From positions 1-64,000 of the forward strand of contig NZ_MINO01000008.1 of NCBI RefSeq assembly GCF_001757355.1: DNA of 64,000 nt. The letters are read 5' to 3'. Made by a program: the position numbers and the translations under genes. The DNA comes from Sphingobium phenoxybenzoativorans. GTDB lineage: Bacteria > Pseudomonadota > Alphaproteobacteria > Sphingomonadales > Sphingomonadaceae. This document shows positions 24,741 through 63,642 of this stretch, in pieces (position 1 is the stretch's first letter; each line of letters opens with the position of its first letter). The notes below the pieces were generated by a model, which saw only the letters and a list, made by a program, of their open reading frames with translations, had not been told where the DNA came from and searched no databases.

Positions 24741-24780
24741 GTATACAGATGTTGACAAATGAGCACCGTCAATAATAGTG
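24741..24780 (+). promoter_or_regulatory. Candidate promoter and operator of the wrbA-GST-graF operon
   Basis: GTATACAGATGTTGAC (24741-24756) resembles the GTATCCACTTG operator seen elsewhere. It overlaps a TTGACA -35 box (24752-24757); a weak -10 (ATAGTG) follows 17 bases later. Overlap of operator and -35 suits repression. The rest of the 24477-24809 gap holds no gene. Confidence 0.45.
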
Positions 24781-24809
24781 CGTACACTTATTCAACGAAG
24801 GTGAGAGAG

Positions 24810-25409
24810 ATGCCCAAGCTGCTGATTCTATATTATTCCTCCTTTGGGCATGTTGAGATGATGGCGCACACCATTGCGGAGGGTGTCATATCAGCGGGTG
24901 CCGAAGCTGATGTTCGCCGCGTGGCGGAAACAGTGCCGGCCGAGGTGGCAAAGGCCATGCATTTCAAACTTGAGCAGACAGCCCCGCTTGCCGATCCGGC
25001 GGATCTGGCCGGATATGACGGCATAATCATGGGCGCACCGACACGATTTGGGCGCATGCCGACCCAGATGACGGCGTTCTGGGATCAAACTGGCCCGCTC
25101 TGGATGCAGGGCGCGCTGGTCGGGAAAGTGGGAGCGGCCTTCACGGCAACGGCCAGCCAGCATGGCGGCCAGGAAACCACGCTCTTTTCCATGCTGACCA
25201 ATATGATGCATCACGGCATGGTGCTGGCTGGCCTTCCTTCGACGTTCCAGGGTCAGATGGGGGTCGATGAAATCCGTGGCGGCTCGCCCTATGGCCCGAC
25301 CACAGTAACGGCCGGCGATGGATCGCGCCTCCCCAGCCCTTCTGAATTGGACGGCGCCCGGTTTCTCGGCGCGCATGTCGCCCGCATAGCGGCGAAACTT
25401 GCAGCTTGA
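24810..25409 (+). CDS. wrbA: NAD(P)H:quinone oxidoreductase, WrbA type
   Basis: A 199-residue flavodoxin-fold protein starting at 24810 ([20 protein letters not shown]) after a GAGAGA site. The FMN loop [29 protein letters not shown], and the late [12 protein letters not shown] and GGSPYGPTT segments are WrbA hallmarks. It reduces quinones by two electrons. Next to a hydroxyquinol pathway, a sensible job is keeping hydroxybenzoquinone reduced. First gene of a seven-gene plus-strand operon. Confidence 0.92.
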
Positions 25410-25437
25410 TCAGCCACCGCCAGCAAGGTGCATTGCG

Positions 25438-26118
25438 ATGATCGACCTCTATTATCACTTCGGGCCCAATCCGACGAAAATCGTCCTCTTTCTTGAGGAG
25501 GCGGGACTTCCTTACAAATTGGTCCCCGTCGATACATTCAAGGGCGACCAGTTCACGCCGGAATTCACCCGGCTCAATCCAAACAACAAGGTGCCGGTCA
25601 TAGTGGATGACGGCATTGTCGTTTTCGACAGCAGCGCTATCCTTATCCATCTGGGCGAAAAATCCGGCCAATTCTACCCGGTAGGAACCGCAGAAGAACG
25701 CGCCGAATTGCGCTCCTGGCTGATGTTCGCGGCGACCGGCCTCGGCCCTTATTGCGGTCAGGCAGTCCATTTTCGCCATTTCGCGCCAGAGCCAAAGGAC
25801 TATGCGGTCAACCGTTACATGTTCGAAGCGCGGCGGCATTACGCCATTCTCGACGACCGGCTGAGTGAACGGGAATGGATCGTCAACGGCCAATATTCCA
25901 TTGTCGATATGGCGGTCTGGGGCTGGACCCGGAATATCGATTTCATCCTGGGCGCTGACGCACGGCAGGAATATCCGTCGCTCATGGCGTTCGTTGACAG
26001 GATATCCGAACGCCCGGCGGGAAGGGTTGCGGCGAGCCTGCGCGACAGCGGCGTATTCAAACAGTCCTACGATCAGGAAGCCCATGACCACATGTACCGC
26101 CATGGCGGCACGCAATGA
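25438..26118 (+). CDS. Glutathione S-transferase (copy 1)
   Basis: A 226-residue two-domain GST started at 25438 (MIDLYYHFGPNPTKIVLFLE). The thioredoxin-like domain has NPNNKVPVIVDDG and the glutathione gamma-Glu contact motif FDSSAIL; the helical domain follows from about residue 85 and contains QYSIVDMAVWGW. It closely resembles the GST at 50991 (for example, WLMF-ATGLGPY-GQAVHF is shared). Both are followed by FAH-family hydrolases, as in isomerase/hydrolase pairs of maleylpyruvate and maleylacetoacetate pathways, though a dehalogenating or ether-cleaving role is possible. Confidence 0.88.
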   Translation: MIDLYYHFGPNPTKIVLFLEEAGLPYKLVPVDTFKGDQFTPEFTRLNPNNKVPVIVDDGIVVFDSSAILIHLGEKSGQFYPVGTAEERAELRSWLMFAATGLGPYCGQAVHFRHFAPEPKDYAVNRYMFEARRHYAILDDRLSEREWIVNGQYSIVDMAVWGWTRNIDFILGADARQEYPSLMAFVDRISERPAGRVAASLRDSGVFKQSYDQEAHDHMYRHGGTQ

Positions 26119-26193
26119 TGATGAGGGCGCCGCGGAACGGAACTTCAGCATGCACTTAAATGACAACCCAATGGGACAAGGCGGGGAATAGAA

Positions 26194-27111
26194 ATGACGG
26201 AATTATACCGTTTGGCGGTGGTAAGCGGCGCGGCCGGGAAAGAAGCGATGGTCGAACATGGTGGTATGTTGCTGCCGATCGACACCTTGCTTGATGGAAA
26301 AATTGGAAACAGCACCGGCCGCCCTGTGGATGACCTTGCCCCGGTTCTCGACCACTGGTCAGGATGGAACGCAAAAATCGCCGCGAAGGTTGAAGCTGGA
26401 AAGTCTCTATTTTTGGAAAAGGGCATCCCGGTTCATAGCGCGAAATTTGCTTCGCCTCTCGCCAATCCCGGCAAAATTGTCTGTATCGGTTCAAATTTTC
26501 ACGATCATATCGCCGAAATGGCGATCCCGATGACGCCCTCTTACCCCTACAGTTTCTTGAAACCCGTAAATAATACGGTTCGCGGCAATGGAGATCCCGT
26601 GGCGGTGCCGCGGCGGTCGCAGATGATGGATTGGGAGGCTGAGCTGGGCGTGGTCATTGGCAAGCGTTGCGCCAATGTCAGCGCAGCCGACGCGCTCAAT
26701 ATGGTCGCAGGCTATCTCAATTTTAACGACCTGTCCTGCCGCGACTGGTTGGCGACACGGCCGCCAGTGGGCATCGATTGGGTGCAGCATAAGGCATTTG
26801 ACGGCTTTGCGCCTATGGGGCCTTTCCTGGTTCCGGCGCAGTTCGTGACCGATCCCCAGAATATACCGATGCGCCTTACAGTAAACGGGATCACCAAACA
26901 GGATTCAAATACCGCGCAAATGGTGTTCGGCGTTGCCGAAATCATCGAACATCTCAGTTCGATCATGACCCTGATGCCGGGAGACGTCATCGCGACCGGA
27001 ACTCCGGCGGGTGTAGGCCATGGCGCAAAGCCGCCGCAATATCTGAAAGCCGGAGACATTGTGGAGTTGGAGATAGGCTCTCTGGGCAAGCTGGTGACGC
27101 CAATAGTCTGA
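26194..27111 (+). CDS. Fumarylacetoacetate hydrolase-family protein (copy 1)
   Basis: A 305-residue FAH-fold enzyme. The N-terminal 85 residues form a cap, then GSNFHDHIAE opens the catalytic domain. Metal ligands of the family lie in MMDWEAELGVVIGK (E-x-E), and the conserved end MTLMPGDVIATGTPAGVG is present. FAH-family members hydrolyse or decarboxylate acylpyruvates and related 2-oxo acids. It closely resembles the copy at 51977. It follows GST copy 1, with graF downstream. Exact substrate unknown. Confidence 0.88.
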   Translation: MTELYRLAVVSGAAGKEAMVEHGGMLLPIDTLLDGKIGNSTGRPVDDLAPVLDHWSGWNAKIAAKVEAGKSLFLEKGIPVHSAKFASPLANPGKIVCIGSNFHDHIAEMAIPMTPSYPYSFLKPVNNTVRGNGDPVAVPRRSQMMDWEAELGVVIGKRCANVSAADALNMVAGYLNFNDLSCRDWLATRPPVGIDWVQHKAFDGFAPMGPFLVPAQFVTDPQNIPMRLTVNGITKQDSNTAQMVFGVAEIIEHLSSIMTLMPGDVIATGTPAGVGHGAKPPQYLKAGDIVELEIGSLGKLVTPIV

Positions 27112-27216
27112 CGTGTGCGATGAGGCCGTTTCGCGCCCACCCCTGTCGCAATGTCGCGGAAATATAGCTCGATATCGACGGCTGCGCTCATCGGCGAACA
27201 TGTTTGGGAGTATGAT

Positions 27217-28248
27217 ATGCAAGGCAAAATAGCCCTGGAAGAACATTTCGCCATTCCAGAAACGCTTCAGGATTCGGCTGGTTTTGTACCGGACGACTAT
27301 TGGACGGAATTGTCGGCGCGCATTCTGGATATCCAGGATCGCCGTCTGCGGGAAATGGATGAAAACGGCATCGAAATGATGCTGCTCTCGCTCAACGCTC
27401 CCGCTGTGCAGGCCATATCCGATCCCGCCAAAGCCATAGAGATTGCGCAGCGCGCCAACGACTATCTGGCGGAGGAAATCGCCAAGCGGCCGGACCGATT
27501 CCAGGGGTTCGCCGCCCTCCCTCTGCAGGACCCCGATGCCGCGTCGCAGGAGGTGATACGCTGCGTCAAGGAACTGGGTTTCCGGGGAGCGCTCGTAAAC
27601 GGTTTCTCCCAGTCCGGGGATGGCGACCAGACCCTATATTATGATCTGCCCATGTATCGCTCCTTCTGGGCAGAGGTCGAAAAGCTGGACGTCCCCTTCT
27701 ATCTGCATCCGCGCAATCCCCTGCCTCAAAATGCCCAAATCTATGCTGGCCATGAATGGTTGCTTGGGCCGACATGGGCATTTGGGCAGGAAACCGCTGT
27801 GCACGCGCTGCGCCTGATGGGTTCCGGCCTATTCGACGAGCATCCCGGCCTTACGATCATCGTTGGTCACATGGGAGAAGGATTGCCCATATCCATGTGG
27901 CGGATCGATCATCGGAACGCATGGGTTAAAATGCCCAAGAAGCACCCGGCCAAGCAGCCCATATCCTATTATTTCCACAATAATTTCTACATCACGACCT
28001 CCGGTAATTTCCGGACGCAATCGCTGGTGGATGCGATGATGGAGATAGGATCGGATCGCATCCTGTTCTCTGCGGACTGGCCTTTCGAAAATGTCGACCA
28101 TGCCGCCAACTGGTTCGACAACGCCACCATCAGCGAAAGCGACCGGTTGAAGATCGGCAGGGCCAACGCCAACCGGCTGTTCCAGCTTGGCCTGGACGAA
28201 GGCAAGACAATGGCGGCGACACCGCCCAATCCTTCCAATGTGGATTAA
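27217..28248 (+). CDS. graF: Gamma-resorcylate (2,6-dihydroxybenzoate) decarboxylase
   Basis: A 343-residue amidohydrolase-superfamily decarboxylase started at 27217 (MQGKIALEEHFAIPETLQDS). The metal ligands of gamma-resorcylate decarboxylase are all at their expected places: Glu8, His10, His164 (FYLHPRN) and Asp287 (FSADWPF), plus His218 in VGHMGEG. The sequence is close to the Rhizobium GraF type throughout (LSLNAPAVQAI, LGPTWAFGQETAVHAL). It converts gamma-resorcylate to resorcinol without a redox cofactor. It is followed by the reductase and dioxygenase of the same pathway. Related ortho-hydroxybenzoates could be the real substrate. Confidence 0.9.
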   Translation: MQGKIALEEHFAIPETLQDSAGFVPDDYWTELSARILDIQDRRLREMDENGIEMMLLSLNAPAVQAISDPAKAIEIAQRANDYLAEEIAKRPDRFQGFAALPLQDPDAASQEVIRCVKELGFRGALVNGFSQSGDGDQTLYYDLPMYRSFWAEVEKLDVPFYLHPRNPLPQNAQIYAGHEWLLGPTWAFGQETAVHALRLMGSGLFDEHPGLTIIVGHMGEGLPISMWRIDHRNAWVKMPKKHPAKQPISYYFHNNFYITTSGNFRTQSLVDAMMEIGSDRILFSADWPFENVDHAANWFDNATISESDRLKIGRANANRLFQLGLDEGKTMAATPPNPSNVD

Positions 28249-28266
28249 AGGGTAGCGTCGAAAGAT

Positions 28267-29343
28267 ATGCTTTTCTCCCCAGGCCAATCCTTCACCTACA
28301 CCGCCAATCCGGGCCGCGTGATTTTCGGGCATGGCACGATTGCCCAATTGCCCGATGAAATAGAGCGGCTCGGCCTGAAACGGATGCTGGTGCTATCCAC
28401 GCCCTTCCAGCGGAGCGAGGCAGAAAAGCTAGCGCAGCGCATCGGCGATAAAGCCGCAGACATATTCGCTGGCGCTGTCATGCATACGCCGGTGAATGTC
28501 ACACAGGACGCCGTGGCGGTCGTGAATGCGCTGGGCGCTGATGGCGTCGTCGCCATCGGCGGAGGATCGACCACCGGCTTGGGTAAGGCTATCGCTCTTC
28601 GCACCGGACTGCCCCAGATCGTGGTGCCGACCACCTATGCCGGATCGGAGATGACGCCCATCCTGGGCGAGACGTCTGACGGCACAAAGACCACCCGATC
28701 CGACCCGGCGATATTGCCCGAAGTGGTGATCTACGATGTGGATCTTACTCTCGGACTGCCGCCAATGCTTTCGGGCACGAGCGGCATCAACGCGATCGCC
28801 CATGCCGTGGAAGCGCTATATGCGCGGGACCGCAATCCCGTGATTTCCTTGATGGCGCTGGAAGGCATCTCCGCCTTGTCAGGGGCGCTGCCAACCATCA
28901 ACCACAACCCTTCGGATAGGGACGCGCGCGCTGCCGCGCTTTATGGCGCATGGCTGTGCGGCATCTGCCTCGGTGCGGTCGGCATGGCGCTGCATCACAA
29001 GCTCTGCCATGTGATCGGCGGCACATTCGACCTGCCGCATGCAGAAACCCACACGATCATCCTGCCACATGCGCTTGCCTATAATGCGCCTGCAATTCCA
29101 GAAGCCTGGCAGCAGCTCCAATCCGTTCTCGGCGACGATCCGGCGCTTGCCCTCCACCAACTGGCGCGGAAGGTCGGTGCGCCGCACGGCCTGGGGGCCA
29201 TCGGCATGCCGGAAGAGGGCATAGACGAGGCGACCGGCCGGGCATTCGCCAATCCTTATTGGAACCCCCGCCCCCTCGAAGAAAATCCCATACGCCAACT
29301 GATAGCGCGCGCCTGGCAAGGCGCTCCGCCCGCCAAGGATTGA
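28267..29343 (+). CDS. graC: Maleylacetate reductase
   Basis: A 358-residue iron-type alcohol dehydrogenase-fold protein starting MLFSPGQSFTYTANPGRVIF. It carries the NAD-binding loop IGGGSTTGLGKAIA, VVPTTYAGSEMTPILGETSD, and the C-terminal His segments GMALHHKLCHVIGG and HAETHTIILPHALAYN, all typical of maleylacetate reductases rather than alcohol dehydrogenases. It reduces maleylacetate to 3-oxoadipate with NAD(P)H. It lies 18 bases after graF and 10 before the dioxygenase, in the gra/tsd gene order. Confidence 0.92.
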   Translation: MLFSPGQSFTYTANPGRVIFGHGTIAQLPDEIERLGLKRMLVLSTPFQRSEAEKLAQRIGDKAADIFAGAVMHTPVNVTQDAVAVVNALGADGVVAIGGGSTTGLGKAIALRTGLPQIVVPTTYAGSEMTPILGETSDGTKTTRSDPAILPEVVIYDVDLTLGLPPMLSGTSGINAIAHAVEALYARDRNPVISLMALEGISALSGALPTINHNPSDRDARAAALYGAWLCGICLGAVGMALHHKLCHVIGGTFDLPHAETHTIILPHALAYNAPAIPEAWQQLQSVLGDDPALALHQLARKVGAPHGLGAIGMPEEGIDEATGRAFANPYWNPRPLEENPIRQLIARAWQGAPPAKD

Positions 29344-29353
29344 GAGAAGCGAA

Positions 29354-30250: not shown

Positions 30251-30294
30251 TCCCCTCCCCCGCCCAACCACGAACCACAGATCAAGGATAGGCC

Positions 30295-31020: not shown

Positions 31021-31057
31021 AACGGCTTCTTCACGCTGTTTTCCCGACTGTCTCAAA

Positions 31058-31801: not shown

Positions 31802-31816
31802 AGGCCAGGCTCCCTA

Positions 31817-31852
31817 AAAATGGGCGGCGACGGCTTTCCAGCCATCGCCGCC
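31817..31852 (-). terminator. Intrinsic terminator after the TonB receptor
   Basis: On the minus strand GGCGGCGA (31852-31845) pairs with TCGCCGCC (31830-31823), followed by CATTTTTA. It lies between the receptor stop (31864) and the SDR start (31801), so it can reduce read-through to the SDR gene. Confidence 0.65.
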
Positions 31853-34311: not shown

Positions 34312-34340
34312 ATTATGTATCCACTTGACTACTTTGTCAA
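34312..34340 (-). promoter_or_regulatory. TonB receptor 1 promoter with embedded operator
   Basis: On the minus strand TTGACA (34340-34335) and CATAAT (34317-34312) are separated by exactly 17 bases, close to the sigma-70 consensus. The operator GTATCCACTTGACTAC (34317-34332, plus-strand reading) fills the spacer. The plus strand offers TTGACT (34324-34329) with an AT-rich -10 for the SDR gene at 34492, so one operator may serve both directions. Confidence 0.65.
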
Positions 34341-35770: not shown

Positions 35771-35895
35771 CATGACATCGGCCGCCGCGCCGGCACCTTC
35801 GGGCGGGATCGCCGCCCGGTTTTATCCGGCGCGGCCGCCCATGCGAATGCGGCTTGGTATTTGCATCCACATTCCAGTGGATGTTACACAAGGCG

Positions 35896-36534
35896 ATGAC
35901 CAAAGCAGCCGACAGCGCCCCTCCCCGCCCGCGAAATTCCACAAAGACGAAGGCACGCATCCTGGAGGCTGCACAAAACGCCTTTTCGACGCGGGGATAT
36001 CGCGATGTCGGCATTCGAGACATCTCGGCCGCTGCCGAAGTAAATCAGAACCTGATCACCCGATATTTTGGCGGCAAGGCCAGCCTGTTCCGGGAAGCGC
36101 TGGCTTCAATCCTGAAGCTTGACGATCTGCTGATCGAAGATCGCGCCGATTTCGGTAACAGGCAGGCCAATATCCTCCGGGAAAATCATGCCACGACGAT
36201 GAATTCCGGCGCGATGCTGGCGCTTTCAATCGGCGACCCGCAGGCCAGAGCCATCAGCAGCGAAAAATGGAACCATCAACTGGTTGACGTTATCGCAGAC
36301 TGGCTTGACGGCCCGGACGCCAAAGCCCGCGCGCGTTTGATATCTATGCTCTCGATGGGATTCACGGTTGTCCAGCTCCTCACCGCAGAGGAAAGCGAGG
36401 AAAGCCGGGAAGAACAGATTTTCATCGACCAATGGTTGGCGGAAACGCTGCAAAAGATCGTGGATATGCCGGAGGGTTCCGCTACCGGAACGCTGCCCAG
36501 CTCGTCAGACAAAATCTCCGGCAAAGTCGCCTGA
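35896..36534 (+). CDS. TetR-family regulator
   Basis: I start at 35896 (MTKAADSAPPRPRNSTKTKA); an ATG at 35881 is also possible. The N-terminal helix-turn-helix ARILEAAQNAFSTRGYRDVG, then IRDISAAAEVNQNLITRYFG, is typical TetR, followed by the helical ligand domain. The C-terminus is Ser-rich. It is convergent with the flavin monooxygenase gene. It may respond to a pathway intermediate. Confidence 0.88.
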   Translation: MTKAADSAPPRPRNSTKTKARILEAAQNAFSTRGYRDVGIRDISAAAEVNQNLITRYFGGKASLFREALASILKLDDLLIEDRADFGNRQANILRENHATTMNSGAMLALSIGDPQARAISSEKWNHQLVDVIADWLDGPDAKARARLISMLSMGFTVVQLLTAEESEESREEQIFIDQWLAETLQKIVDMPEGSATGTLPSSSDKISGKVA

Positions 36535-37916: not shown

Positions 37917-38008
37917 TATCCCACTCTCCTAAAAATATCCGGTCAGGCGAACGCAGCAGATTTGGCTCGGCCTTGAACAAGCGCCCTGCTGCGGCCTTTC
38001 GCCGACAT

Positions 38009-38053
38009 GTATCCACTTGCATACATATGTCAATAGTGTATGCAAGTGGATAC
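38009..38053. promoter_or_regulatory. Double operator: 45-bp inverted repeat between divergent genes
   Basis: GTATCCACTTGCATACA (38009-38025) and its exact reverse complement (38037-38053) flank 11 bases. Each arm is itself an imperfect palindrome of form GTATnCAnnTGnATAC. The repeat lies midway between the monooxygenase (start 37916, minus) and the SDR (start 38189, plus). On the minus strand a TTGACA lies between the arms. Confidence 0.75.
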
Positions 38054-39540: not shown

Positions 39541-39621
39541 GTCGCACCTTTTTCTGCGGAACAGGGGCCTCTCCCCAACAATGTGTTCAGATGTCAGCCT
39601 TGCCACAACAAGTCAACAACT

Positions 39622-39637
39622 GTATACATAGTGCGAC
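39622..39637. promoter_or_regulatory. Operator-like site upstream of the VOC gene
   Basis: GTATACATAGTGCGAC matches the GTATnCA half of the shared operator and lies 82 bases upstream of the VOC start. It is a degenerate match, so evidence is weak. Confidence 0.3.
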
Positions 39638-39743: not shown

Positions 39744-40139
39744 TCAGGAATCCCCTGCATCATATCTGTGGCGTGCCGTCTCCACGTCGCGCCGGTGGTC
39801 GCTGGCCCACGCGGCAAGAGCGGTGAGCGGCGCGCAGAGGGATTGGCCCAGAGCCGTAAGCCTATATTCCACCCGTGGAGGCACGGTGCCAAAAGACCGT
39901 CGATCCACCAACCCGTCGCGCTGCAGCCCCCGCAAGGTCAGCGTCAGCATCCTGTGGGAAATGCCCGGAATCGCGCGCTGGATCGCATTGAAACGCATCG
40001 CGCCGGATGAAAGATGTCCAACGACCATTACAGTCCATTTGTCGCCGATGCGGTCGATGACCTGCGCCAGCGCCACGCATTCCCTGCCGGGATCCTCCGC
40101 ATCTTCGCCCGCTATTCCTAAAGTTTCCGGATTTTTCAT
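39744..40139 (-). CDS. HxlR-family regulator
   Basis: A 131-residue winged-helix protein started at 40139 (MKNPETLGIAGEDAEDPGRE). HxlR hallmarks are VIDRIGDKWTVMVVGHLSSG, AMRFNAIQRAIPGISHRMLT, and LRGLQRDGLVDRRSFGTVPP. It is divergent from the NmrA-like gene and so probably controls it, as HxlR proteins often answer to reactive quinones or aldehydes. Confidence 0.9.
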   Translation of the reverse strand: MKNPETLGIAGEDAEDPGRECVALAQVIDRIGDKWTVMVVGHLSSGAMRFNAIQRAIPGISHRMLTLTLRGLQRDGLVDRRSFGTVPPRVEYRLTALGQSLCAPLTALAAWASDHRRDVETARHRYDAGDS

Positions 40140-40196
40140 TCCATTCTCCCGATCCAATCTGGCGATCCGCAAACGAACAAATTTGTGCGTTCTTGT

Positions 40197-40212
40197 GCAT
40201 CCACTTTCTGCC
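40197..40212. promoter_or_regulatory. Operator-like site between HxlR and NmrA-like genes
   Basis: GCATCCACTTTCTGCC differs from the GTATCCACTTG core at two of eleven bases. It lies in the divergent promoter region (40140-40265). Confidence 0.4.
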
Positions 40213-40265
40213 AAGCATATCCGCACGCACAAAATGTTCGTGTCAACTGTCTTGGAGTATCCAGC

Positions 40266-41133: not shown

Positions 41134-42042
41134 ATGCAAATCCCCACCATATCGCCGCCACAGCCCGCCCCGGCGAATGACAGTCCCGTCGATGGCCTCG
41201 ATGGTTTTCGCCATCATTTTGCAGACGTGAATGGTACGCGCATACATTATGTGTCGGGAGGCGCCGGCCCTGCCGTCGTGCTCGTACATGGATGGCCCTA
41301 CACCTGGGCGCTGTGGCGCCAACTCATGCCCTTGATCGCTGATGCGGGCTTTACCGTTATTGCCCCTGATCTGCGCGGGCTGGGCTATTCCGCTCATGCG
41401 GAAGACGGCTTCTCAAAAGTCAGTGTCGCGGAAGATATCCGCGCGATCGTCCAGTCGTGGGGCTTTGCCACGATCAACCTGGTCGGCACGGATATCGGCA
41501 CGATGGTCGCTTATGCCTATGCGTCCCGGCACCCCGAAGAAATCGCTCATCTCGTTCTGGCCGAATCCCTGATACCGGGCTTTGGTCTGGAAGAACTGAT
41601 GAATCCCGCCACCGGCGGCTATTGGCATTTCGGTTTCCATGCCCAGGCGGACCTCGCCGCTTTTCTGACGGAAGGGAAGGAAAGCGCCTATCTTTTGCCG
41701 ACAATGTCGATGATGTCCGCATCGCCGGACGCTGCCGAAACTGCGATGGGCTTGTTCCTCCCTCACTATGTCGCGCCGGGCGGCATGCGCCAAGGGTTCA
41801 AACATTATGCAACGATGGTCTCCGATGGGCAGGAGAACCGCGCCGCATTCACTGCCAAACTCGCCATGCCCGTTCTTGTGCTGAGCGGAGAACGCGGCAT
41901 TCCTCAGGCCCAGACCTTGGCCTGTGTCGAAAAAGTTGCGGCGGATATACAGACCGACATCGTACCGGCGTCAGGGCACACCTTCTCCCTCGACAATCCA
42001 GTTTGGGTTGCGGATCGCCTGAACCGCTTCTTCAACGATTAA
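41134..42042 (+). CDS. Alpha/beta hydrolase, epoxide hydrolase/dehalogenase type
   Basis: A 302-residue hydrolase started at 41134 (MQIPTISPPQPAPANDSPVD). The oxyanion segment VHGWPYTWALWRQLMPLI and the nucleophile motif GTDIGT (Asp120) place it with epoxide hydrolases and haloalkane dehalogenases, which use Asp instead of Ser. His282 (SGHTFSLDNP) completes the dyad. It follows the NmrA-like gene by 20 bases and may open an epoxide made by the monooxygenase or P450. Confidence 0.86.
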   Translation: MQIPTISPPQPAPANDSPVDGLDGFRHHFADVNGTRIHYVSGGAGPAVVLVHGWPYTWALWRQLMPLIADAGFTVIAPDLRGLGYSAHAEDGFSKVSVAEDIRAIVQSWGFATINLVGTDIGTMVAYAYASRHPEEIAHLVLAESLIPGFGLEELMNPATGGYWHFGFHAQADLAAFLTEGKESAYLLPTMSMMSASPDAAETAMGLFLPHYVAPGGMRQGFKHYATMVSDGQENRAAFTAKLAMPVLVLSGERGIPQAQTLACVEKVAADIQTDIVPASGHTFSLDNPVWVADRLNRFFND

Positions 42043-50717: not shown

Positions 50718-50768
50718 ATGGCCGGACGCATCCGCCTAGCTTGACAAACATACCCTCATCAGGAATCT

Positions 50769-50784
50769 GTATCCACAATTGGAA
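50769..50784. promoter_or_regulatory. Operator-like site upstream of GST copy 2
   Basis: GTATCCACAATTGGAA shares the first eight bases of the operator. It lies in the 273-base gap before the GST gene, which otherwise shows no gene. Confidence 0.4.
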
Positions 50785-50990: not shown

Positions 50991-51668
50991 ATGATCAGCT
51001 TCTATTATTGCATCGGTCCCAATCCGATGAAGGTCGCGCTTTTCCTTGAAGAATCCGGGGTGCCTTACGACGCGATCCCGGTGGACATATTGAAAGGCGA
51101 GCAGCTCAGCCCCGAATTTCTGCGCCTTAATCCGAATGGGAAACTGCCTGTTCTGGTGGATGAAGGCGTCACCATTTTCGACAGCAACGCCATCTTGCTT
51201 TATCTCGCCGAAAAATACGGGAAGTTCCTTCCGGGGGAATCCTTTGCTGCGCGCGGAACGCTTCTGTCCTGGCTGATGTTCGTGGCAACCGGACTTGGTC
51301 CCTATAGCGGGCAGGCCGTGCATTTTCAGCATTATGCGCCGGAACCGAAAAGCTACGGGGTCCAGCGCTATGTGTTTGAAGCGCGCCGTCATTACGGGGT
51401 GCTCAACGATCATCTCGCCTATCGGGAATGGATGGTTGGTGACACCTATACCATAGTCGATATGGCGGTCTGGGGCTGGTGCGCCAATATCGATCGGGTG
51501 CTGGGCGTCGAAGCCCGGCAGGATTTCCCCCATCTGATGCGGCTGGTCGACAGGATCGGCCAACGCCCCGCAGCCTTGGCCGTACATGGCCTGCGTGAAC
51601 GCCATGCATTCAAAATGCAGTTTGACGAACAGGCGCGTGCTAACATGTTCCAGCACCTTCCTGCATGA
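50991..51668 (+). CDS. Glutathione S-transferase (copy 2)
   Basis: A 225-residue GST (MISFYYCIGPNPMKVALFLE) with NPNGKLPVLVDEG and FDSNAILLYLAEK in the thioredoxin-like domain, and YTIVDMAVWGW in the helical domain. It is clearly paralogous to the GST at 25438 along its whole length. It is followed by a tautomerase and an FAH hydrolase, which together look like an isomerase-tautomerase-hydrolase module. Glutathione-dependent isomerisation is the favoured role. Confidence 0.88.
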   Translation: MISFYYCIGPNPMKVALFLEESGVPYDAIPVDILKGEQLSPEFLRLNPNGKLPVLVDEGVTIFDSNAILLYLAEKYGKFLPGESFAARGTLLSWLMFVATGLGPYSGQAVHFQHYAPEPKSYGVQRYVFEARRHYGVLNDHLAYREWMVGDTYTIVDMAVWGWCANIDRVLGVEARQDFPHLMRLVDRIGQRPAALAVHGLRERHAFKMQFDEQARANMFQHLPA

Positions 51669-51694
51669 TCGCAGCTATCTAAAATTCCATAACT

Positions 51695-51710
51695 GCATCC
51701 ACTATATTGC
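51695..51710. promoter_or_regulatory. Operator-like site upstream of the tautomerase
   Basis: GCATCCACTATATTGC matches GTATCCACT at eight of nine positions and lies 70-85 bases before the tautomerase start. Confidence 0.35.
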
Positions 51711-51779: not shown

Positions 51780-51980
51780 ATGCCGCTAATTTCGGTGCAG
51801 ATGATCCGTGGGCGCACGGCTGAACAAAAGAGAGCCTTCATGAAGGAACTCGCAGAAGCGGCCATTCGGACGCTGGGCGTTCCAGAGCAGTCCGTTCGCG
51901 TGATCGTTACGGAAATTGAGCCGGAACACTGGGGAATCGGCCTGACCACAAAAGCGGAAAGAGACGGGGGAAGCGCATGA
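51780..51980 (+). CDS. 4-oxalocrotonate tautomerase-family protein
   Basis: A 66-residue protein (MPLISVQMIRGRTAEQKRAF) with the catalytic N-terminal Pro after Met removal and an Arg at position 10 of the mature protein. ELAEAAIRTLGVPEQSVRVI, then VTEIEPEHWGIGL, completes the beta-alpha-beta fold. Family members interconvert 2-hydroxymuconate and 2-oxo-3-hexenedioate. It overlaps the FAH gene by ATGA, so its product probably passes to that enzyme; it may also serve the meta pathway at 54 kb, which lacks a tautomerase. Confidence 0.9.
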   Translation: MPLISVQMIRGRTAEQKRAFMKELAEAAIRTLGVPEQSVRVIVTEIEPEHWGIGLTTKAERDGGSA

Positions 51981-52876
51981 CGGACCAGTATCGCCTGGCG
52001 GTTGTCCAGATTGAAGGACAGAGCGCGCCCGTGGTGGAATATGCCGGCCATATGCTGCCGCTGGCGGATATTCTGCCGGGCAGCGAAGGCAAGGCGCCGG
52101 GCGACCTGCTGCCGCTATTGCAGAATTGGGACGAGTCCGAGCAAATTATTTCCGCATATGTGGATGCAAATTTGTCTCGATTTTCTTCCGAGGGATTGTC
52201 CGCGGGCTCCGTTCGGTTCTTGTCCCCGATACAAGCCCCCGGAAAGATTGTGTGCATCGGTTCCAATTTTCACGATCATATCGCCGAAATGCCCATCCCG
52301 ATGGTTCCGACCTATCCTTACAGCTTCCTGAAACCGGCGAATAACACGATCCGCGCTTCGGGCGAGGCCGTCGCCGTGCCCCGCCGCTCCAGCATGATGG
52401 ATTGGGAAGCGGAACTGGCTGTCGTCATCGGCAAGCAATGCGTGGATGTGCCCGCATCCGGCGCCCTCGATGTGATCGCCGGCTATGCGAATTTCAACGA
52501 CCTGTCCGCCCGCGACTGGCTGGACAAGCGGCCGCCGGTTGGCGTCGATTGGGTGCAGCATAAGGCGTTCGATGGCTTTGCGCCCTTCGGACCCTATATC
52601 GTCCCAGCGCGCTTCGTTCCCGATCCGCAGGACTTGCGGATGCGGCTTAGCGTCAATGGCGTGACGAAACAGGATTCCAACACGCGGGAAATGGTTTTCG
52701 GCGTGGCCGCGATCATTGAGCATATCAGCTCGATCATGACGCTGTATCCAGGCGACATCATCGCGACCGGCACGCCGGCGGGAACCGGGCATGGCCGTGG
52801 CGAATATCTGAAATCCGGCGATACGGTCGTCATGGAGGTTGGCCCGCTGGGCGAACTGGTCACGCCTATCGCTTAA
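51977..52876 (+). CDS. Fumarylacetoacetate hydrolase-family protein (copy 2)
   Basis: A 299-residue FAH-fold enzyme, translationally coupled to the tautomerase. GSNFHDHIAEMPIPMVPTYP, SMMDWEAELAVVIGK (metal-binding Glu pair) and MTLYPGDIIATGTPAGTG match copy 1 at 26194 nearly throughout. It probably hydrolyses a 2,4-dioxo acid or related ring-cleavage product. The duplication suggests two related substrates or two branches. Confidence 0.88.
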   Translation: MTDQYRLAVVQIEGQSAPVVEYAGHMLPLADILPGSEGKAPGDLLPLLQNWDESEQIISAYVDANLSRFSSEGLSAGSVRFLSPIQAPGKIVCIGSNFHDHIAEMPIPMVPTYPYSFLKPANNTIRASGEAVAVPRRSSMMDWEAELAVVIGKQCVDVPASGALDVIAGYANFNDLSARDWLDKRPPVGVDWVQHKAFDGFAPFGPYIVPARFVPDPQDLRMRLSVNGVTKQDSNTREMVFGVAAIIEHISSIMTLYPGDIIATGTPAGTGHGRGEYLKSGDTVVMEVGPLGELVTPIA

Positions 52877-53159
52877 TATGCGCACATCCCTTGCGCTACC
52901 GCTGGCGGAATGGCGGTCGACACCGGGCGCGCGGACCCGAAATAAAAGCGGCGATTTCCTCCCCAGGCAAAAACCAAGCCGCCGGCCTGTCCGCATGTGA
53001 ATACAATTTTACGCCGCCTCGCATGTCTGAATATTTCCGGCATCCTGGGGCTGGGGCCGGAATGGCCGATCCTCTTTGGGAATCCGGCCGTTGGCGGCGC
53101 GCGCCTTTCCCATCCTCCGTGCCTATTGATTAAACTGCATCCGATGTTATCGGTCCTCT

Positions 53160-53906
53160 ATGGCTTCTCTTGCGGACGTTCTGAAACCTATCGATCGCAG
53201 CGATGGACGGCGCACGGCCGTTGAGGTCTATGAAACCCTGCAGCAATCCATTCTCAGCGGCCAACTGAAACCCGGCACGATCGTCTCGCAAGTCGAACTC
53301 GCAAAGACCCTGAATGTCAGTCGCACGCCCGTTCGGGAAGCGATGCGCATGCTGCAGGAGGGCGGCCTGCTCGTCGGCGAACCAAATTACCGCAGCCGTG
53401 TCGTCGGTTTCGATCCCGTCGATATCGAAGCGCTCTATATCAAGCGGCTCGCACTGGAATCGCTGGGTGTGGCCATCACCACAAAACGGATGACGCCTGC
53501 GCTGCTCGACGAATTGCGCGAGGTTATCCTCGCGCTCGAGAGCGAGGATGCGCATGACGTCTTTGAACAGTGGCAGAAACTGCATCGCAGGCTCCACCGG
53601 TTGATCGTTGCCGAGGCAGGCGAAGTTCTGGCGAATGAGCTGGAACAACTGGAATTGCGTAGCGAGCGATATCAATCCGCGTACAAGGGCGCTCATCTTG
53701 TCGGATGGTGGCAGCGCGGCGAAGCGGAACATAGGGAAATGTTCCAGGCCATGTCCAATGGCAACGCATCGCTGGCCGCCGAACTGGCGGCGCGCCATCT
53801 CGCTCGAACCGCCCTAGAATTGCTGGCCGCCCTCGCGCCGGAATATGACACGTCGCGCCTCAGGAGCTGCCTCAGCTTCTCCATCGCCGGCGCAAACGCC
53901 GCCTGA
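53160..53906 (+). CDS. GntR-family regulator with FCD domain
   Basis: A 248-residue FadR-type regulator (MASLADVLKPIDRSDGRRTA). The winged helix is VYETLQQSILSGQLKPGTIV, SQVELAKTLNVSRTPVREAM, RMLQEGGLLV; the all-helical FCD domain follows from about residue 90, with RRLHRLIVAEAGEV and HREMFQAMSNGNASLAAELA supplying the usual metal/ligand Asp/His positions. FCD regulators bind operators of GTATnCA/TTGTATACAA type, close to the motif repeated in this region, so it is the best candidate for its binder. Confidence 0.92.
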   Translation: MASLADVLKPIDRSDGRRTAVEVYETLQQSILSGQLKPGTIVSQVELAKTLNVSRTPVREAMRMLQEGGLLVGEPNYRSRVVGFDPVDIEALYIKRLALESLGVAITTKRMTPALLDELREVILALESEDAHDVFEQWQKLHRRLHRLIVAEAGEVLANELEQLELRSERYQSAYKGAHLVGWWQRGEAEHREMFQAMSNGNASLAAELAARHLARTALELLAALAPEYDTSRLRSCLSFSIAGANAA

Positions 53907-53957: not shown

Positions 53958-54056
53958 GTAGAGCGCCCTGTAACGCATCAGCATCGGCAAACCGGGCTGA
54001 CACAGGGAGAGACATCAGAGATTCTGCGCCACCTCTGATTGCTGCATGATATTCTG

Positions 54057-54076
54057 GATACAGTTTGTGTCCACAC
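54057..54076. promoter_or_regulatory. Operator-like inverted repeat upstream of the meta operon
   Basis: GGATACAGTTTGTGTCCAC holds the inverted halves GGATACA and TGTCC, matching TGTATCC of the shared operator. It lies about 210 bases before the first gene of the meta-cleavage operon. Confidence 0.4.
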
Positions 54077-54232
54077 CTTTTGTGCGGTCTCTCCCAAAAT
54101 TATCGAAAATTCCCAGGCGATGGTGATTGAGCGCGTCAATTAATCGCCATTTTCATGCGATTTCCATCATGCGCACTCCCCGGTGCATGGGTCAGGAAAC
54201 GATATGCCCGCAATCTTCATGGCATCAGGGTT

Positions 54233-54268
54233 GCATCCATATTCTTTAGGACGTATACATCCATAAAC
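54233..54268. promoter_or_regulatory. Pair of operator-like sites just before the meta operon
   Basis: GCATCCATATTC (from 54233) and GTATACATCCATAAAC (54253-54268) are half-site matches 20 bases apart, the second ending 20 bases before the ATG at 54289. The position would suit repression. Confidence 0.4.
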
Positions 54269-58242: not shown

Positions 58243-58247
58243 TGACG

Positions 58248-59186: not shown

Positions 59187-59219
59187 GGCGCTATTGACCC
59201 CTTTTATCAGGACCGGACC

Positions 59220-60260
59220 ATGGCCTTCGATCCCACAACACAAAAGCTTTACATTCAGGACGTGACGCTGCGCGACGGCATGCACGCCATTCGGCATCAA
59301 TATGGCCTGGGCCATGTGCAGGCCATTGCCCGCGCTCTCGACCGCGCCAAGGTCGATGCGATCGAGGTCGCGCATGGCGACGGCCTTCAGGGGTCGAGCT
59401 TCAACTACGGCTTCGGCGCTCATACCGACTGGGACTGGATCGGCGCGGTTGCCGAGGTGCTGGAGCATTCCATCCTCACCACCCTGCTGCTGCCCGGCAT
59501 CGGCACCGTACATGACCTGAAGCATGCCTATGAAATGGGCGTCCGGTCCGTGCGGATCGCTACCCATTGCACCGAAGCCGATGTGTCGAAACAGCATATC
59601 GAGGCCGCTCGCAATCTGGGCATGGACGTGTCCGGCTTTCTGATGATGAGCCATATGAGCGAACCGGACGCGTTGGCGAGCCAAGCCAAGCTGATGGAAA
59701 GCTATGGCGCGCATTGCGTCTATGTGACTGACAGCGGCGGCGCATTGACGATGGACGGCTATGCCGCACGGTGCCAGGCCTATGACCGGGTGCTGAAGCC
59801 GGAGACGCAGCGCGGCGTCCACGCCCATCATAATCTGTCGCTCGGCGTCGCCAATTCCATCGTCGCTGTCCAGAATGGCATAGTCCGGGTCGACGCCAGT
59901 TTGGCGGGCATGGGCGCGGGCGCGGGCAATGCGCCGCTGGAAGTCTTTATCGCCGCCGCCGATACCTATGGCTGGAATCATGGCTGCGATCTCTATGCGC
60001 TGATGGACGCGGCCGAGGATCTGGTTCGGCCGCTGCAGGACCGCCCGGTGCGGGTAGACCGCGAGACCCTGACCCTCGGTTATGCGGGCGTCTATTCCTC
60101 CTTCCTGCGCCACGCCGAAAAGGCGGCGGCGGATCATGGCCTCGACACGCGGGCCATCCTTGTGGAGCTGGGCCGTCGCAAGATGGTCGGCGGACAAGAG
60201 GATATGATCGTCGACGTCGCGCTCGATATGCTGAAACAAAAGGAGCAGGCCGATGCCTGA
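59220..60260 (+). CDS. dmpG: 4-hydroxy-2-oxovalerate aldolase
   Basis: A 346-residue DRE-TIM aldolase ([20 protein letters not shown]). VTLRDGMHA holds the Arg and metal Asp, and [15 protein letters not shown] the metal His pair; the C-terminal DmpG communication domain ends [15 protein letters not shown]. It splits 4-hydroxy-2-oxovalerate to pyruvate and acetaldehyde and passes the latter to the dehydrogenase. Order matches dmpF-dmpG. Confidence 0.95.
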
Positions 60261-61014
60261 GATCATGGACATCGCCGCGCGGCTCGATGACGCCGCGCGC
60301 AACGCGACCGCCACACCGCAGTTGGAAGATCCTCTGACGCTGGACGACGCCTACCGGGTTCAGGCGGCATCGCTGGGCCGCCGGTATCAGCGCGGCGAAA
60401 ATCGCGTTGGCATAAAGATGGGTTTCACCAGCCGCGCCAAAATGGCCCAGATGGGCATAGACGAAATGATCTGGGGCCGCCTGACGGATCAGATGCTGGT
60501 CGAGGATGGCGGCAGCATCGATTTTTCCGCCTATGTGCATCCGCGCGTCGAACCGGAAATCGCCTTCGTCCTGAAGGCGCCCCTTGCCGGCAAGGTAACG
60601 CCAGCCGGGGCGCTGGCGGCTGTCGGCGGAATCGCCCCCGCGTTGGAAATCATCGATTCCCGTTACAAGGACTTCAAATTTTCGCTGACCGATGTGGTCG
60701 CCGACAACAGCTCGTCATCCAGCTTCGTCGTCGGTCCCTGGACTGACCCTGCGGCCGACATCTCCAATCTGGGGATGATCCTGGAGATCGACGGACAGCC
60801 GGTACAGATCGGATCGTCCGCCGCCATTCTAGGCCACCCGCTGCGTTCGCTCGTGGCGGCCGCGCGTCTGGCGGACAGCGCCGGCGAACCTTTGAAGGCG
60901 GGGGATATAGTCATGGCCGGAGGAGCCACCGCCGCCGAACATCTTGCGCCGGGACAGCATGTTCGCCTCCTCGTGCAGAAGCTTGGAAGGGTGGAGTTTT
61001 CCGTGAGGGCGTGA
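60253..61014 (+). CDS. dmpH: 2-oxo-3-hexenedioate (4-oxalocrotonate) decarboxylase
   Basis: A 253-residue member of the hydratase/decarboxylase family that overlaps the aldolase by eight bases. The segments [30 protein letters not shown] and [13 protein letters not shown] are those of the XylI/DmpH decarboxylase rather than the hydratase. It decarboxylates the keto tautomer of 2-hydroxymuconate. A tautomerase gene is not in this operon, the nearest being at 51780. Confidence 0.9.
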
Positions 61015-61074
61015 TTTCCTTCGTCCGATGCTGCATAGGGGCGGCGGTCGGACAAGGGAAAGAAAGCCGAAGAA

Positions 61075-61542
61075 GTGAAGGATCACGATCTGCCCGCGAA
61101 ATTGCGTCACTTCGACCTTATGTCCGCGCCAGGCCATTTGCTGCGCCGGAATCACCAGCGGTCATTCGACATCTTTACCCGCCTCGTCGGCGATGTTCTT
61201 ACACGCCAGCAATTCGCACTGATGCTCGCGCTGGGCCAGCGGCCGGGCGCATCGCAGCGCGATCTTGTAGAGGCGACAGGCATCGACAAGAGCACCTTGA
61301 AGGAGATGCTTGGCCGCATGGTCGCGCGCGGCTGGGTGGAGCGCGAACGGGATAAGGCCGACAGCCGGGCGTGGACCATGCATCTGACGGCCATGGGCAC
61401 TGAGCTGCTGCTGGAAAATTTGCCCAAGGTGCAGGCCGCCCAGCGTGAAATACTTGCGCCATTGTCAGAGGAAGATCGCGCTACCTTCATGCGCTGCCTG
61501 CGCAAACTGATCGATCACGATATCGCGCCGGACGGCGGGTAA
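61075..61542 (+). CDS. MarR-family regulator
   Basis: A 155-residue MarR protein from a GTG at 61075. The winged helix is LTRQQFALMLALGQRPGASQ, RDLVEATGIDKSTLKEMLGR, MVARGWVERERDKADSRAW. Helices at both ends form the dimer. It ends the meta operon, 60 bases after dmpH, and is a likely local repressor answering to a phenolic ligand. Confidence 0.9.
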   Translation: MKDHDLPAKLRHFDLMSAPGHLLRRNHQRSFDIFTRLVGDVLTRQQFALMLALGQRPGASQRDLVEATGIDKSTLKEMLGRMVARGWVERERDKADSRAWTMHLTAMGTELLLENLPKVQAAQREILAPLSEEDRATFMRCLRKLIDHDIAPDGG

Positions 61543-61559
61543 GTGTCCCTAAGGGCCAT

Positions 61560-61598
61560 CCGGCATCCACTCGCAAAAGAAGCGATGCCGGTTCTTTT
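61560..61598 (+). terminator. Intrinsic terminator between convergent genes
   Basis: CCGGCATC (61560-61567) pairs with GATGCCGG (61584-61591), followed by TTCTTTT. It closes the meta operon before the convergent P450 gene. Confidence 0.72.
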
Positions 61599-61612
61599 CC
61601 CGATGATCAGTG

Positions 61613-62821
61613 CTACGCCTCCCGTGGGGCGAACGACACATGCAGTTCGGGGATGAAGGAATAATCCCCTCCCCCGAACTGATAGATGGGAACGCCGCTC
61701 TCGATCCGCATATCCGGTATCATCGTCAGCAATTCTTCCAGCATCACGCACAGCTCCATTCTGGCAAGGGGCGCGCCAGGGCAGATATGGATACCGAAGC
61801 CGAAGCTGAAATGGCGGCTGGCTGGGCGATCGATCGAAAATTCGGCCGGGCACTCGAATATCTGCGGATCGCGGTTGGCGGCAGCCCAGCCCATATAGAC
61901 GTCCTTGCCCGCCGGAATTTCCACGCCCTGCACGTCCACTGCCTTTGTCGTGCGCCGGAAAAAGCCGAAGAAAGGGGGCCTCAGCCGAAGCGCTTCCTCC
62001 ACCGCCACCGGAATCTTGCCGGGGTCGCGGATCAAAAGGTCGCGGACATCCGGCCGGGAAAACACCTCATAGATCAGGCTGGCCATGGCGGATGTCGTAC
62101 TGTGATGCCCCGCCCCCAGGAAAGCGGAGAGGAGGACAACATAGTCATTGTCGTCCAGCGACCTGCCCTCGACCTCCACATCGGCAAGGGAAGTCAGGAA
62201 ATCCTCCCGCGGCCGCGCGCGCCGTTCATGGACCTCGGTCACCGTCAGCGCGCCGAAAACGGCCTGCCGCCTGCCGAACTCCTCCGGGTCGCCCTGCGCT
62301 GCGAACATGGCGAGGGCAGCCTCCCGGATCGGCGGAACCTTGTCATCATCTATGCCGACAAGGTGGCAGATGGTCTCGGCCGGCACGGGTTCCGCCAGTT
62401 CCGCAACGATGTCGCATGATCCCTTGCCGATGAAGCTTGCGATATGCCGCCGGACGTCCTGCCGCACAAAAGGCTCCATCGCAGCGGGCGTGGCGGTCGT
62501 GACGGCCGCACTGAACAGGGCGCGCCAGGCGCTGTGCCGGGGCGGGTCCATTTCCAGCGCCGGAATCTGCTTTCGCGGCAACATGGGGCGCAGCACCTGC
62601 GGCTCCGAAGAAAATGTGCGATAGTCCGCCATCGCCTTGCGGACATCCTTATGGTCGAGCAGCATGTAGAAGCCGTCATGTTCGCTGCTATGGGCGACCG
62701 GACAGCGCGCCCGCGCACTTTCGAAAAGTTCCAGGCTTTCCGCCGGAGGGGTCGTATAGCAACTCCAGCCCTTCGTATCCCGCGCCAGGTCATGGCCCGG
62801 CGCAACCTTGTCCTCACTCAT
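61613..62821 (-). CDS. Cytochrome P450
   Basis: A 402-residue soluble bacterial P450. The haem Cys347 lies in FGFGIHICPGAPLARME, the ExxR in VEEALRL, the I-helix oxygen-activation motif in LGAGHHSTTS, and EMDPPRHSAWR is the C-helix region. It should hydroxylate or demethylate an organic substrate using a ferredoxin and reductase, neither of which is next to it. It is downstream of a TetR gene and a palindrome that may be its operator. Confidence 0.95.
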   Translation of the reverse strand: MSEDKVAPGHDLARDTKGWSCYTTPPAESLELFESARARCPVAHSSEHDGFYMLLDHKDVRKAMADYRTFSSEPQVLRPMLPRKQIPALEMDPPRHSAWRALFSAAVTTATPAAMEPFVRQDVRRHIASFIGKGSCDIVAELAEPVPAETICHLVGIDDDKVPPIREAALAMFAAQGDPEEFGRRQAVFGALTVTEVHERRARPREDFLTSLADVEVEGRSLDDNDYVVLLSAFLGAGHHSTTSAMASLIYEVFSRPDVRDLLIRDPGKIPVAVEEALRLRPPFFGFFRRTTKAVDVQGVEIPAGKDVYMGWAAANRDPQIFECPAEFSIDRPASRHFSFGFGIHICPGAPLARMELCVMLEELLTMIPDMRIESGVPIYQFGGGDYSFIPELHVSFAPREA

Positions 62822-62885
62822 GAAGCTCTCCCGAATCCTCTCTGCAGCACATCAGGCTCACTGCCAAAGTGCACACAGTTTAATA

Positions 62886-62903
62886 CGATACTATAGGGTA
62901 TCG
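62886..62903. promoter_or_regulatory. Palindromic operator between TetR and P450 genes
   Basis: CGATAC (62886-62891) and GTATCG (62898-62903) are inverted around TATAGG. It lies 65 bases upstream of the P450 start and just after the TetR stop, a typical place for TetR control of the P450. Confidence 0.5.
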
Positions 62904-62905
62904 CA

Positions 62906-63553
62906 TCAAGGTCTTTCTTCGGGGGTAGCCTTTCCTATTCCGGACAGGATCAATTCCACCGCCAGACTGATCTGCGCGGGGAAGTCCGCCGCGCTTTGCG
63001 CGAAATCGATCTTGCCCAAGGCAAGGCGCTGATAGGTGTCTCCCATCAACAGATGCATGAACGCCCTAGCCCGCATGTCGGCTTCGGCCGCGGGCAACAG
63101 GCCGGACAGAATGCGTTCGATCACGGCGATCGATCGCGCCGGGGCGGCGTCGTAGAAAAGGCGGCCAAGCTCTGGAAAACGCGCCATTTCGCCCATCAGC
63201 ATGCGGAACAGGCCGAGCACGCCCGGTTCTGTGATGGCCATGACGAAGGTCTGGCCGAAATCCGACAGCGATTGCGCGGCTGCCTCCCGCGTGGTCGCCG
63301 GGTCATGCTCCTCCACGGCATAGATTTGTGCACAGTCCCGGTTGATCGCCGCCAGAAAGAGCGCCTCCTTGCTCTTGAAATGGCGATACAGCGTCATTTT
63401 CGACGCACCGGCCTCCTCAGCGATCCTGTCCATGCTCGCGGCCGAAAATCCTTCCGCCAGGAAGCGGTCGCGGGCGGCGTCCAATATACGCTCGCGCTTG
63501 TCCGCCATCTGCTGCACCCGCGCATGCGATGCCGACCACGCCTTCCGCTTCAT
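62906..63553 (-). CDS. TetR-family regulator
   Basis: A 215-residue TetR protein; an ATG at 63508 (MADKRERILDAARDRFLAEG) is an alternative start. The helix-turn-helix is FSAASMDRIAEEAGASKMTL, YRHFKSKEALF. The C-terminal domain resembles AefR/TetR_C regulators (FRMLMGEMARFPELGRLFYD). It lies upstream of the P450 on the same strand and probably regulates it. A shared-operator copy lies upstream at 63627. Confidence 0.9.
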   Translation of the reverse strand: MKRKAWSASHARVQQMADKRERILDAARDRFLAEGFSAASMDRIAEEAGASKMTLYRHFKSKEALFLAAINRDCAQIYAVEEHDPATTREAAAQSLSDFGQTFVMAITEPGVLGLFRMLMGEMARFPELGRLFYDAAPARSIAVIERILSGLLPAAEADMRARAFMHLLMGDTYQRLALGKIDFAQSAADFPAQISLAVELILSGIGKATPEERP

Positions 63554-63626
63554 TCTGGTTTCGCCTGTAATGATCGACCTCTCCGCTCATGGGGAACAGC
63601 CGAAGTCCAGCACCCGGCCCCGGCCG

Positions 63627-63642
63627 GTATCCACTTGGCTTT
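63627..63642. promoter_or_regulatory. Shared operator upstream of the TetR gene
   Basis: GTATCCACTTGGCTTT contains the exact 11-mer GTATCCACTTG and is followed by TTGTCAT. On the minus strand this reads ATGACAAAGCCAAGTGGATAC, close to TonB receptor 1 (TTGACAAAG...CAAGTGGATAC). It lies 74 bases upstream of the TetR start. Confidence 0.6.

Follow-up and report, generated by a model that had tools for sequence, protein, structure and literature searches.

In Agrobacterium fabrum, hydroxycinnamate genes are described as repressed by Atu1419, a GntR protein of the VanR group that uses the operator ATGTATACAT and is a tetramer able to bind two palindromes (PMC7797058). MbdR of Azoarcus, from the TetR family, is described as a multi-promoter repressor of an aromatic pathway, with the palindrome ATAC-N10-GTAT at several promoters (PMC4424350). 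Here, we analyzed a 64,000-nucleotide stretch of Sphingobium phenoxybenzoativorans (contig NZ_MINO01000008.1, positions 1 to 64,000; referred to as the window), which holds a large aromatic-catabolism cluster with repeated words at its promoters. An earlier note on this DNA had proposed that a shared operator links the operons and is read by the GntR/FCD protein encoded at 53160. The existence of a shared operator was supported. From the sequences, we consider it probable that two repressors with overlapping operators serve one aromatic-catabolism regulon: the GntR protein would read the 8-bp palindrome TGnATnCA, and a TetR-family protein (35896-36534) would read a 16-bp palindrome.

Loci that carry one of the two proteins without the other were compared. 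Surveys with the GntR, TetR, and dioxygenase proteins covered 397 family genomes each, and the genome handles suggest one common draw. GntR orthologs (64 to 83% identity) were found in seven other genomes, giving 8/397 with the window's own. Relatives of the TetR protein, at 35 to 41% identity, were present in 12/397, including the window's genome and G465, which has both regulators. The latter locus (L052) was excluded, leaving 13 TetR-only loci (L053 to L065) from 10 genomes, three of them from G247 and two from G376; these genomes were not among the GntR matches at 1e-40. Absence of the TetR protein was searched genome-wide (1e-25). The 8-mer occurred in all six GntR-only clusters (17 copies over 12.1 kb) and in 1/13 TetR-only loci, the single copy lying within the 16-mer of L063. 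The strict form of the 16-mer, GTnnAC-N4-GTnnAC, showed the opposite distribution, with 0/6 GntR-only clusters and 10/13 TetR-only loci, and a relaxed form gave 0/6 and 11/13. Since the 8-mer and the 16-mer occur separately, the two motifs track two different proteins; they overlap in the window because GTATmCA can belong to both. The earlier reading merged these overlapping motifs and did not name the TetR protein or an HxlR-family protein (39744-40139) as candidates. On the sequence evidence, its assignment of the short word to the GntR protein is right: the GntR gene accompanies the pathway in 8/8 genomes, the 8-mer is conserved, and most orthologs carry an upstream copy. Its further suggestion that the 16-bp GTATnCAnnTGnATAC suits a GntR dimer is probably wrong, given the distribution of the GT-N12-AC class to which this palindrome belongs.

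Conservation of the 8-mer was assessed in the window and in the seven other genomes. Fourteen of the 24 window copies fell in intergenic DNA, which makes up 10% of the sequence (binomial p 9e-9). Upstream of cluster genes in the other genomes, 23 copies were counted against 2.22 expected from composition, a tally in which some promoter bases were treated as coding owing to over-long TonB31864 and TetR35854 open reading frames (ORFs) and antisense artefacts. These copies were spread over 7/7 genomes, and TGnATnCA ranked first of 64 reverse-palindromic patterns, whereas inside the same genes it occurred 9 times against 11.1 expected. Two first ORFs, hyp39709 and u50970, were discarded as antisense artefacts of the HxlR gene and a GST gene. 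The consensus is asymmetric, being mostly TGYATmCA followed by C or G. In 7/8 orthologs, the 400 bp before the GntR gene include an exact copy; in G346, one-mismatch forms only were found. Flanks are also kept at orthologous promoters: AATCTGTATCCAC at a flavodoxin or GST promoter, AACTGCATCCACT at the FAH promoter, and TTGCATCCA...GGACGTATACA with 20-bp spacing at the semialdehyde dehydrogenase promoter in the window, G465, and G346. By hand count in the listed flanks, both units at 54232 recur with this spacing in G465 (318664) and G346 (102738). Tandem units were also checked for a 10-bp phasing, which proved not to be general.

TTGACH boxes lay within 35 bp of 19/40 8-mers compared to 4.9 at random upstream positions (500 draws, highest 14). 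This adjacency to TTGAC-like -35 boxes would fit a core promoter element, or else a chance compositional repeat, in place of an operator. We regard that explanation as highly improbable because the word is not general. TGnATnCA is rare outside cluster spans (4 in ~212 kb over eight fetched stretches) and between the two gene blocks of G465 (3 in 49 kb). A scan of the full genome, proposed as a check in the earlier note, located every copy of the exact 11-mer GTATCCACTTG in the 5.04-Mb assembly inside the window (4/4), precisely where the note had placed them: 34317(+), 38009(+), 38043(-), and 63627(+). The degenerate form TGYATMCASWT has 7/17 of its genome copies there. Including variants, 12 positions had been listed as lying between genes, and 12/12 were intergenic in our gene calls. 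Single loose variants of the 11-mer prove little, since 18 window matches with up to two mismatches were found against 9.8 expected, and 18 was reached in 1/100 shuffles. Among the listed positions, 48306 and 63627 are weak, each with one mismatch to the 8-mer core and neither being a 16-mer, and the one listed at 39622 is part of the 16-mer at 39612-39627. The list lacked three TGnATnCA sites, at 35862, 38147, and 52998, of which 52998 precedes the GntR gene.

The 53160 protein scored 55.4 bits with GntR (cut-off 27) and 54.6 bits with FCD (cut-off 24.3) and belongs to the GntR superfamily with an FCD domain. The effector domain has six helices in the VanR group of FCD proteins and seven in the FadR group; the structure model (pLDDT 84.3) showed six long helices, one short helix, and one extra C-terminal helix. 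In a Foldseek search, Atu1419 was the best match (E 6e-10, TM ~0.45) and FadR scored lower (E 4e-5), with TM-scores by query length that were low, 0.36 to 0.53 among the 50 matches listed. Arg45, Thr46, and Arg49, with which Atu1419 contacts DNA bases, align by phmmer with R55, T56, and R59, which are invariant in 8/8 orthologs, as is the recognition-helix segment SRTPVREAMRMLQEGGL; Glu34 is replaced by Gln44. The conserved upstream motif TGnATnCA matches the short palindromic operator at the promoter that a VanR-type protein would have, and its binding by this protein is putative. A putative extradiol dioxygenase of the cluster was found at 72% identity or above in the same eight genomes as the GntR gene.

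The window TetR protein scored 48.0 bits with TetR_N (cut-off 24) and 33.6 bits with TetR_C_16 (cut-off 26.2) and is a member of that family. Within 220 bp upstream, 10/13 loci of its relatives carry the strict 16-mer, against 0.21 expected from the rate elsewhere in those loci; L058 and L064 have no 16-mer site. The seven divergent neighbors that were typed encode P450 (2), FMO-like monooxygenase (3), a sulfatase (1), and a TonB-receptor plug protein (1). A matrix was derived from nine 16-mers chosen by eye from the 11 site-bearing loci, of which L054 repeats L053 and L061 repeats L059; the window and G465 were not used. In the G465 stretches (119 kb), its two top matches were the HsaA/SDR38189 promoter (GTAAACCACTGTTTAC) and the TonB31864/SDR34420 promoter (GTCAACAGCGGTTTAC), orthologous to the sites 38009/38038 and 34317, respectively. 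The latter match lies in a divergent promoter, at least 27 bp before the first possible SDR start. Direct reading of the HsaA promoter gave the same geometry in both genomes, TTGAC(A/T)-N3-16-mer-AT. In the window, the matrix placed 39612 at the top and 24741 at rank 2; 38009 and 38038 shared rank 4, and 34317 took rank 6.

Without mismatches, the 16-mer GTATNCANNTGNATAC has just two places in the genome, 38009 and 38038. Allowing up to two mismatches gave 32 places, compared to 45 for a reversed control pattern, so that loose matches outside the window are at chance level; six of the 32 lie in the window, where shuffles predict 0.79. The half-relaxed form GTATNCANNTGNNNAC gave six window places (eight strand matches) against a shuffle mean of 0.04, namely 24741, 34317, 38009, 38038, 39612, and 52989. 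A genus-wide role for the perfect 16-mer was rejected, as it was found in 4/94 genus genomes (the window's and three others, one copy each) and the reversed control in 2/94. Outside the window, two weak 16-mer-like sites lie 30 bp apart on contig C20 of G000 (41378-41423; L048), a spacing close to the 29 bp of 38009/38038.

Five window 16-mers (24741, 34317, 38009, 38038, and 39612) also contain TGTATmCA or TGTATGCA. They could alternatively be explained by the GntR/FCD protein alone, with each 16-mer representing two abutting 10-bp VanR-type palindromes (ATGTATCCAC and TTGCATACAT) bound on one helix face by a tetramer or a pair of dimers. The units at 38008/38018 and 38037/38047 are exactly 10 bp apart and those at 54232/54252 are 20 bp apart, and the tetramer of Atu1419 mentioned above offers a precedent (PMC7797058). 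The mean match of a second unit peaks at offsets +29, +10, and +20, partly owing to the overlapping window sites themselves. Strict 16-mers, however, accompany TetR relatives in genomes that lack this GntR protein and are missing where it occurs without the TetR protein, and the G465 sites GTAAACCACTGTTTAC and GTCAACAGCGGTTTAC contain no TGnATnCA at all. We therefore judge a single GntR reader unlikely.

Several observations weigh against our two-repressor interpretation. Its main weakness is that the TetR half-site is of variant form at three of the five composite sites, whose scores fall short of those of the training sites. The strict form is present at 24741 and 39612 and at both G465 sites, but 34317, 38009, and 38038 carry the variant and scored 10.5 to 11.4, compared to 15 to 24 for the training sites; the window TetR protein would therefore need an altered half-site. 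A coding position, 43744 (11.4), ranked third, just above these three, and 52989 was only tenth (8.2). No 16-mer-class site directly upstream of the TetR gene was found among the top window matches of the matrix, and autoregulation would have to act by way of the operon upstream. Relatives of the TetR protein share only 35 to 41% identity with it, and the syntenic G465 copy 40 to 41%. The 16-mer class was defined by eye before being counted across loci, and the clusters were gathered through the GntR protein. Because the HsaA/SDR38189 and TonB31864/SDR34420 genes are absent from GntR-only clusters, a lineage-specific form of the GntR site is possible. Dioxygenase relatives without the GntR gene amount to just 2/10 and are distant (46 to 48%); the absence of the 8-mer from their 7.1 kb says little.

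The HxlR-family protein was considered as a third candidate reader of the shared word. It is encoded inside the cluster and kept in G465 (73%), and site 40196 lies in its divergent intergenic region. Its gene was found in only 2/8 clusters, as judged from the fetched stretches, whereas the 8-mer occurs in 8/8, and the intergenic region carries a CGnACA-N3/4-TGTnCG-like palindrome pair of its own, seen by eye in both genomes. We give this candidate almost no weight. The region is at 40140-40265 in the window, and a similar palindrome pair precedes the HxlR gene in G465 (L042, ~8720-8810); these palindromes are likely the operator of the HxlR protein itself.

In the two-repressor scheme, the VanR-type GntR/FCD protein would bind as a dimer to TGnATnCA in core promoters throughout the cluster and in that of its own gene. 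The TetR protein would bind the GT-N12-AC-class palindrome at an accessory set of promoters: TonB31864/SDR34420, HsaA36636/SDR38189 (two sites at 29-bp spacing), glyoxalase 39013, and the flavodoxin/intradiol-branch genes. Its gene is the last in the SDR34420-hyp35327-TetR run, which begins downstream of site 34317. Both proteins are most likely repressors that would be released by pathway metabolites. Repression may proceed by blocking RNA polymerase, as suggested by sites that sit near TTGACH boxes or, at 34317, in the promoter spacer; by direct reading, this 16-mer takes up the N17 spacer between TTGACA and CATAAT on the minus strand. Because the 16-mers enclose the GntR-type word, both proteins could occupy the five composite sites and may compete for, or jointly close, these promoters. 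Binding, repression, and inducers are what we infer in this scheme from the observed sites, positions, conservation, and separate co-occurrence. Half-sites at L053 to L065 are mostly GTAAAC or GTCTAC, unlike GTATmC in the window. Tentatively, the TetR half-site may have drifted from GTAAAC towards GTATmC in this lineage, with each 16-bp operator now enclosing an entire GntR/VanR 8-bp operator. If so, genes acquired together with the TetR gene and older GntR targets would be under joint two-sensor control, either mutually exclusive or additive.

Table 1. Regulators and candidate operator sites in the window
Feature	Position	Strand	Context
16-mer GTATACAGATGTTGAC, strict GTnnAC-N4-GTnnAC	24741..24756	+	Before flavodoxin/intradiol-branch genes; TetR-matrix rank 2
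GntR-type TGTATACA	24740-24747		Within 16-mer GTATACAGATGTTGAC
16-mer GTATCCACTTGACTAC	34317..34332	+	Between TonB receptor (-) and SDR-hyp-TetR run (+); TetR-matrix rank 6
TGCATCCA	35862..35869	+	Upstream of TetR gene
TetR-family regulator, proposed reader of 16-mer	35896..36534	+	Pfam TetR_N 1.1e-12 (ORF from 35854)
Perfect 16-mer GTATCCACTTGCATAC	38009..38024	+	HsaA-like monooxygenase (-)/SDR (+) promoter; TetR-matrix rank 4 (tie)
Second perfect 16-mer GTATGCAAGTGGATAC	38038..38053	+	29 bp from 38009 copy; TetR-matrix rank 4 (tie)
16-mer GTATACAGTTGTTGAC, strict TetR-type	39612..39627	-	Upstream of glyoxalase-family gene; contains TGTATACA; TetR-matrix rank 1
HxlR-family regulator, rival candidate	39744..40139	-	Pfam HxlR 4.9e-28
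TGCATCCA	40196..40203	+	HxlR/NmrA-like divergent intergenic region
TGTATCCA	50768..50775	+	Upstream of second GST gene; flank AATCTGTATCCAC common to G465 385534 and G346 109789
TGCATCCA	51694..51701	+	Upstream of FAH-family gene; flank AACTGCATCCACT common to G465 384120 and G346 108330
TGTATTCA	52998..53005	-	Upstream of GntR gene; part of weak 16-mer-like site 52989-53004
GntR/FCD regulator, proposed reader of TGnATnCA	53160..53906	+	Pfam GntR 4.8e-15, FCD 1.9e-14; Foldseek top match Atu1419 VanR
TGTATCCA	54055..54062	-	Upstream of 2-hydroxymuconic semialdehyde dehydrogenase gene
TGCATCCA	54232..54239	+	CGTATACA 20 bp further on
Fourth exact 11-mer	63627..63637	+	Before TetR-P450 pair; weak, differing from TGnATnCA at one base and not forming a 16-mer

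The cluster comprises two branches. A 2-hydroxymuconic semialdehyde dehydrogenase (TIGR03216, 835.8 bits; cut-off 693.25) marks the meta-cleavage branch, which also includes an acetaldehyde-dehydrogenase-type protein, an aldolase with HMGL and DmpG domains, and hydratase-like and 4-oxalocrotonate decarboxylase-like proteins that scored near but below their cut-offs. Its predicted extradiol dioxygenase is a glyoxalase/dioxygenase-superfamily protein assigned by Pfam only. The second branch has an intradiol-type dioxygenase, an amidohydrolase, a dienelactone-hydrolase-family protein, and an iron alcohol dehydrogenase family protein that may act as maleylacetate reductase. Two HsaA-like flavin monooxygenases (below the HsaA cut-off), a P450, SDRs, and two TonB receptors are also encoded. 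Relatives of the HsaA-like protein among genome contigs comprised 31 loci, all distant (36% identity or less), which served only within a pooled tblastn database. Other HsaA-like relatives, in G211 and G413 (~40%), were dropped, with no further cluster gene scoring above the filter in 19.9 kb each. We would guess at a two-ringed polyphenol as the pathway substrate; no match for it was found in the portions of the literature seen, nor was a published description of the cluster or regulon in the literature searched.

In G465, most of the gene set lies on one contig in two blocks, ~296 to 322 kb and ~372 to 394 kb. Regulator genes of the window are TetR 35896, HxlR 39744 (-), LysR 49659, GntR/FCD 53160, TetR 62906, and, at the end, one of Lrp/AsnC type. 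Among the eight clusters, window included, HxlR and TetR 35896 were each found in two, TetR 62906 in three, and LysR in six; for HxlR, LysR, and TetR 62906, absences refer to the fetched stretches, some of which end at contig ends. A GST gene and an FAH-family gene are duplicated (50991-51668 and 51977-52876 versus 25399-26118 and 26194-27111), with one of each in the G465 stretches, and the pair at 50991-51668 and 51977-52876 keeps the G465-like upstream sites. The region ~17000-23800, with a phage-type integrase (22450-23778), DUF927, and a weak Toprim-like gene, is probably a mobile element bordering the cluster.

These findings give a conserved aromatic-catabolism cluster its candidate regulators, each with a list of predicted targets. 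They provide a clean natural case in which to test how one recognition word comes to be shared by two repressor families, and a warning that a motif spotted by eye beside one regulator may belong to another. The system belongs to already known kinds of control. Atu1419 (PDB 6z74, 6za3) is the nearest counterpart of the GntR protein: ATGTATACAT reads almost like the window units, and the recognition-helix arginine and its neighbors are kept. It is likewise described as repressing an aromatic pathway and itself from operators at -10/-35 elements (PMC7797058). The window GntR protein is only distantly related to it (phmmer 1.5e-10), with a larger predicted target set and an asymmetric consensus. 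AlkR of Pseudomonas aeruginosa (PDB 9isw), another FCD/VanR repressor, is reported to control a catabolic oxygenase from a palindromic operator over the promoter, but its operator is ATTGTCAGACAAT and its pathway that of n-alkanes (PMC12042122). For the TetR protein, MbdR is similar in its control of several promoters of an aromatic pathway, but differs in half-site order and spacing and in serving the anaerobic 3-methylbenzoate pathway (PMC4424350).

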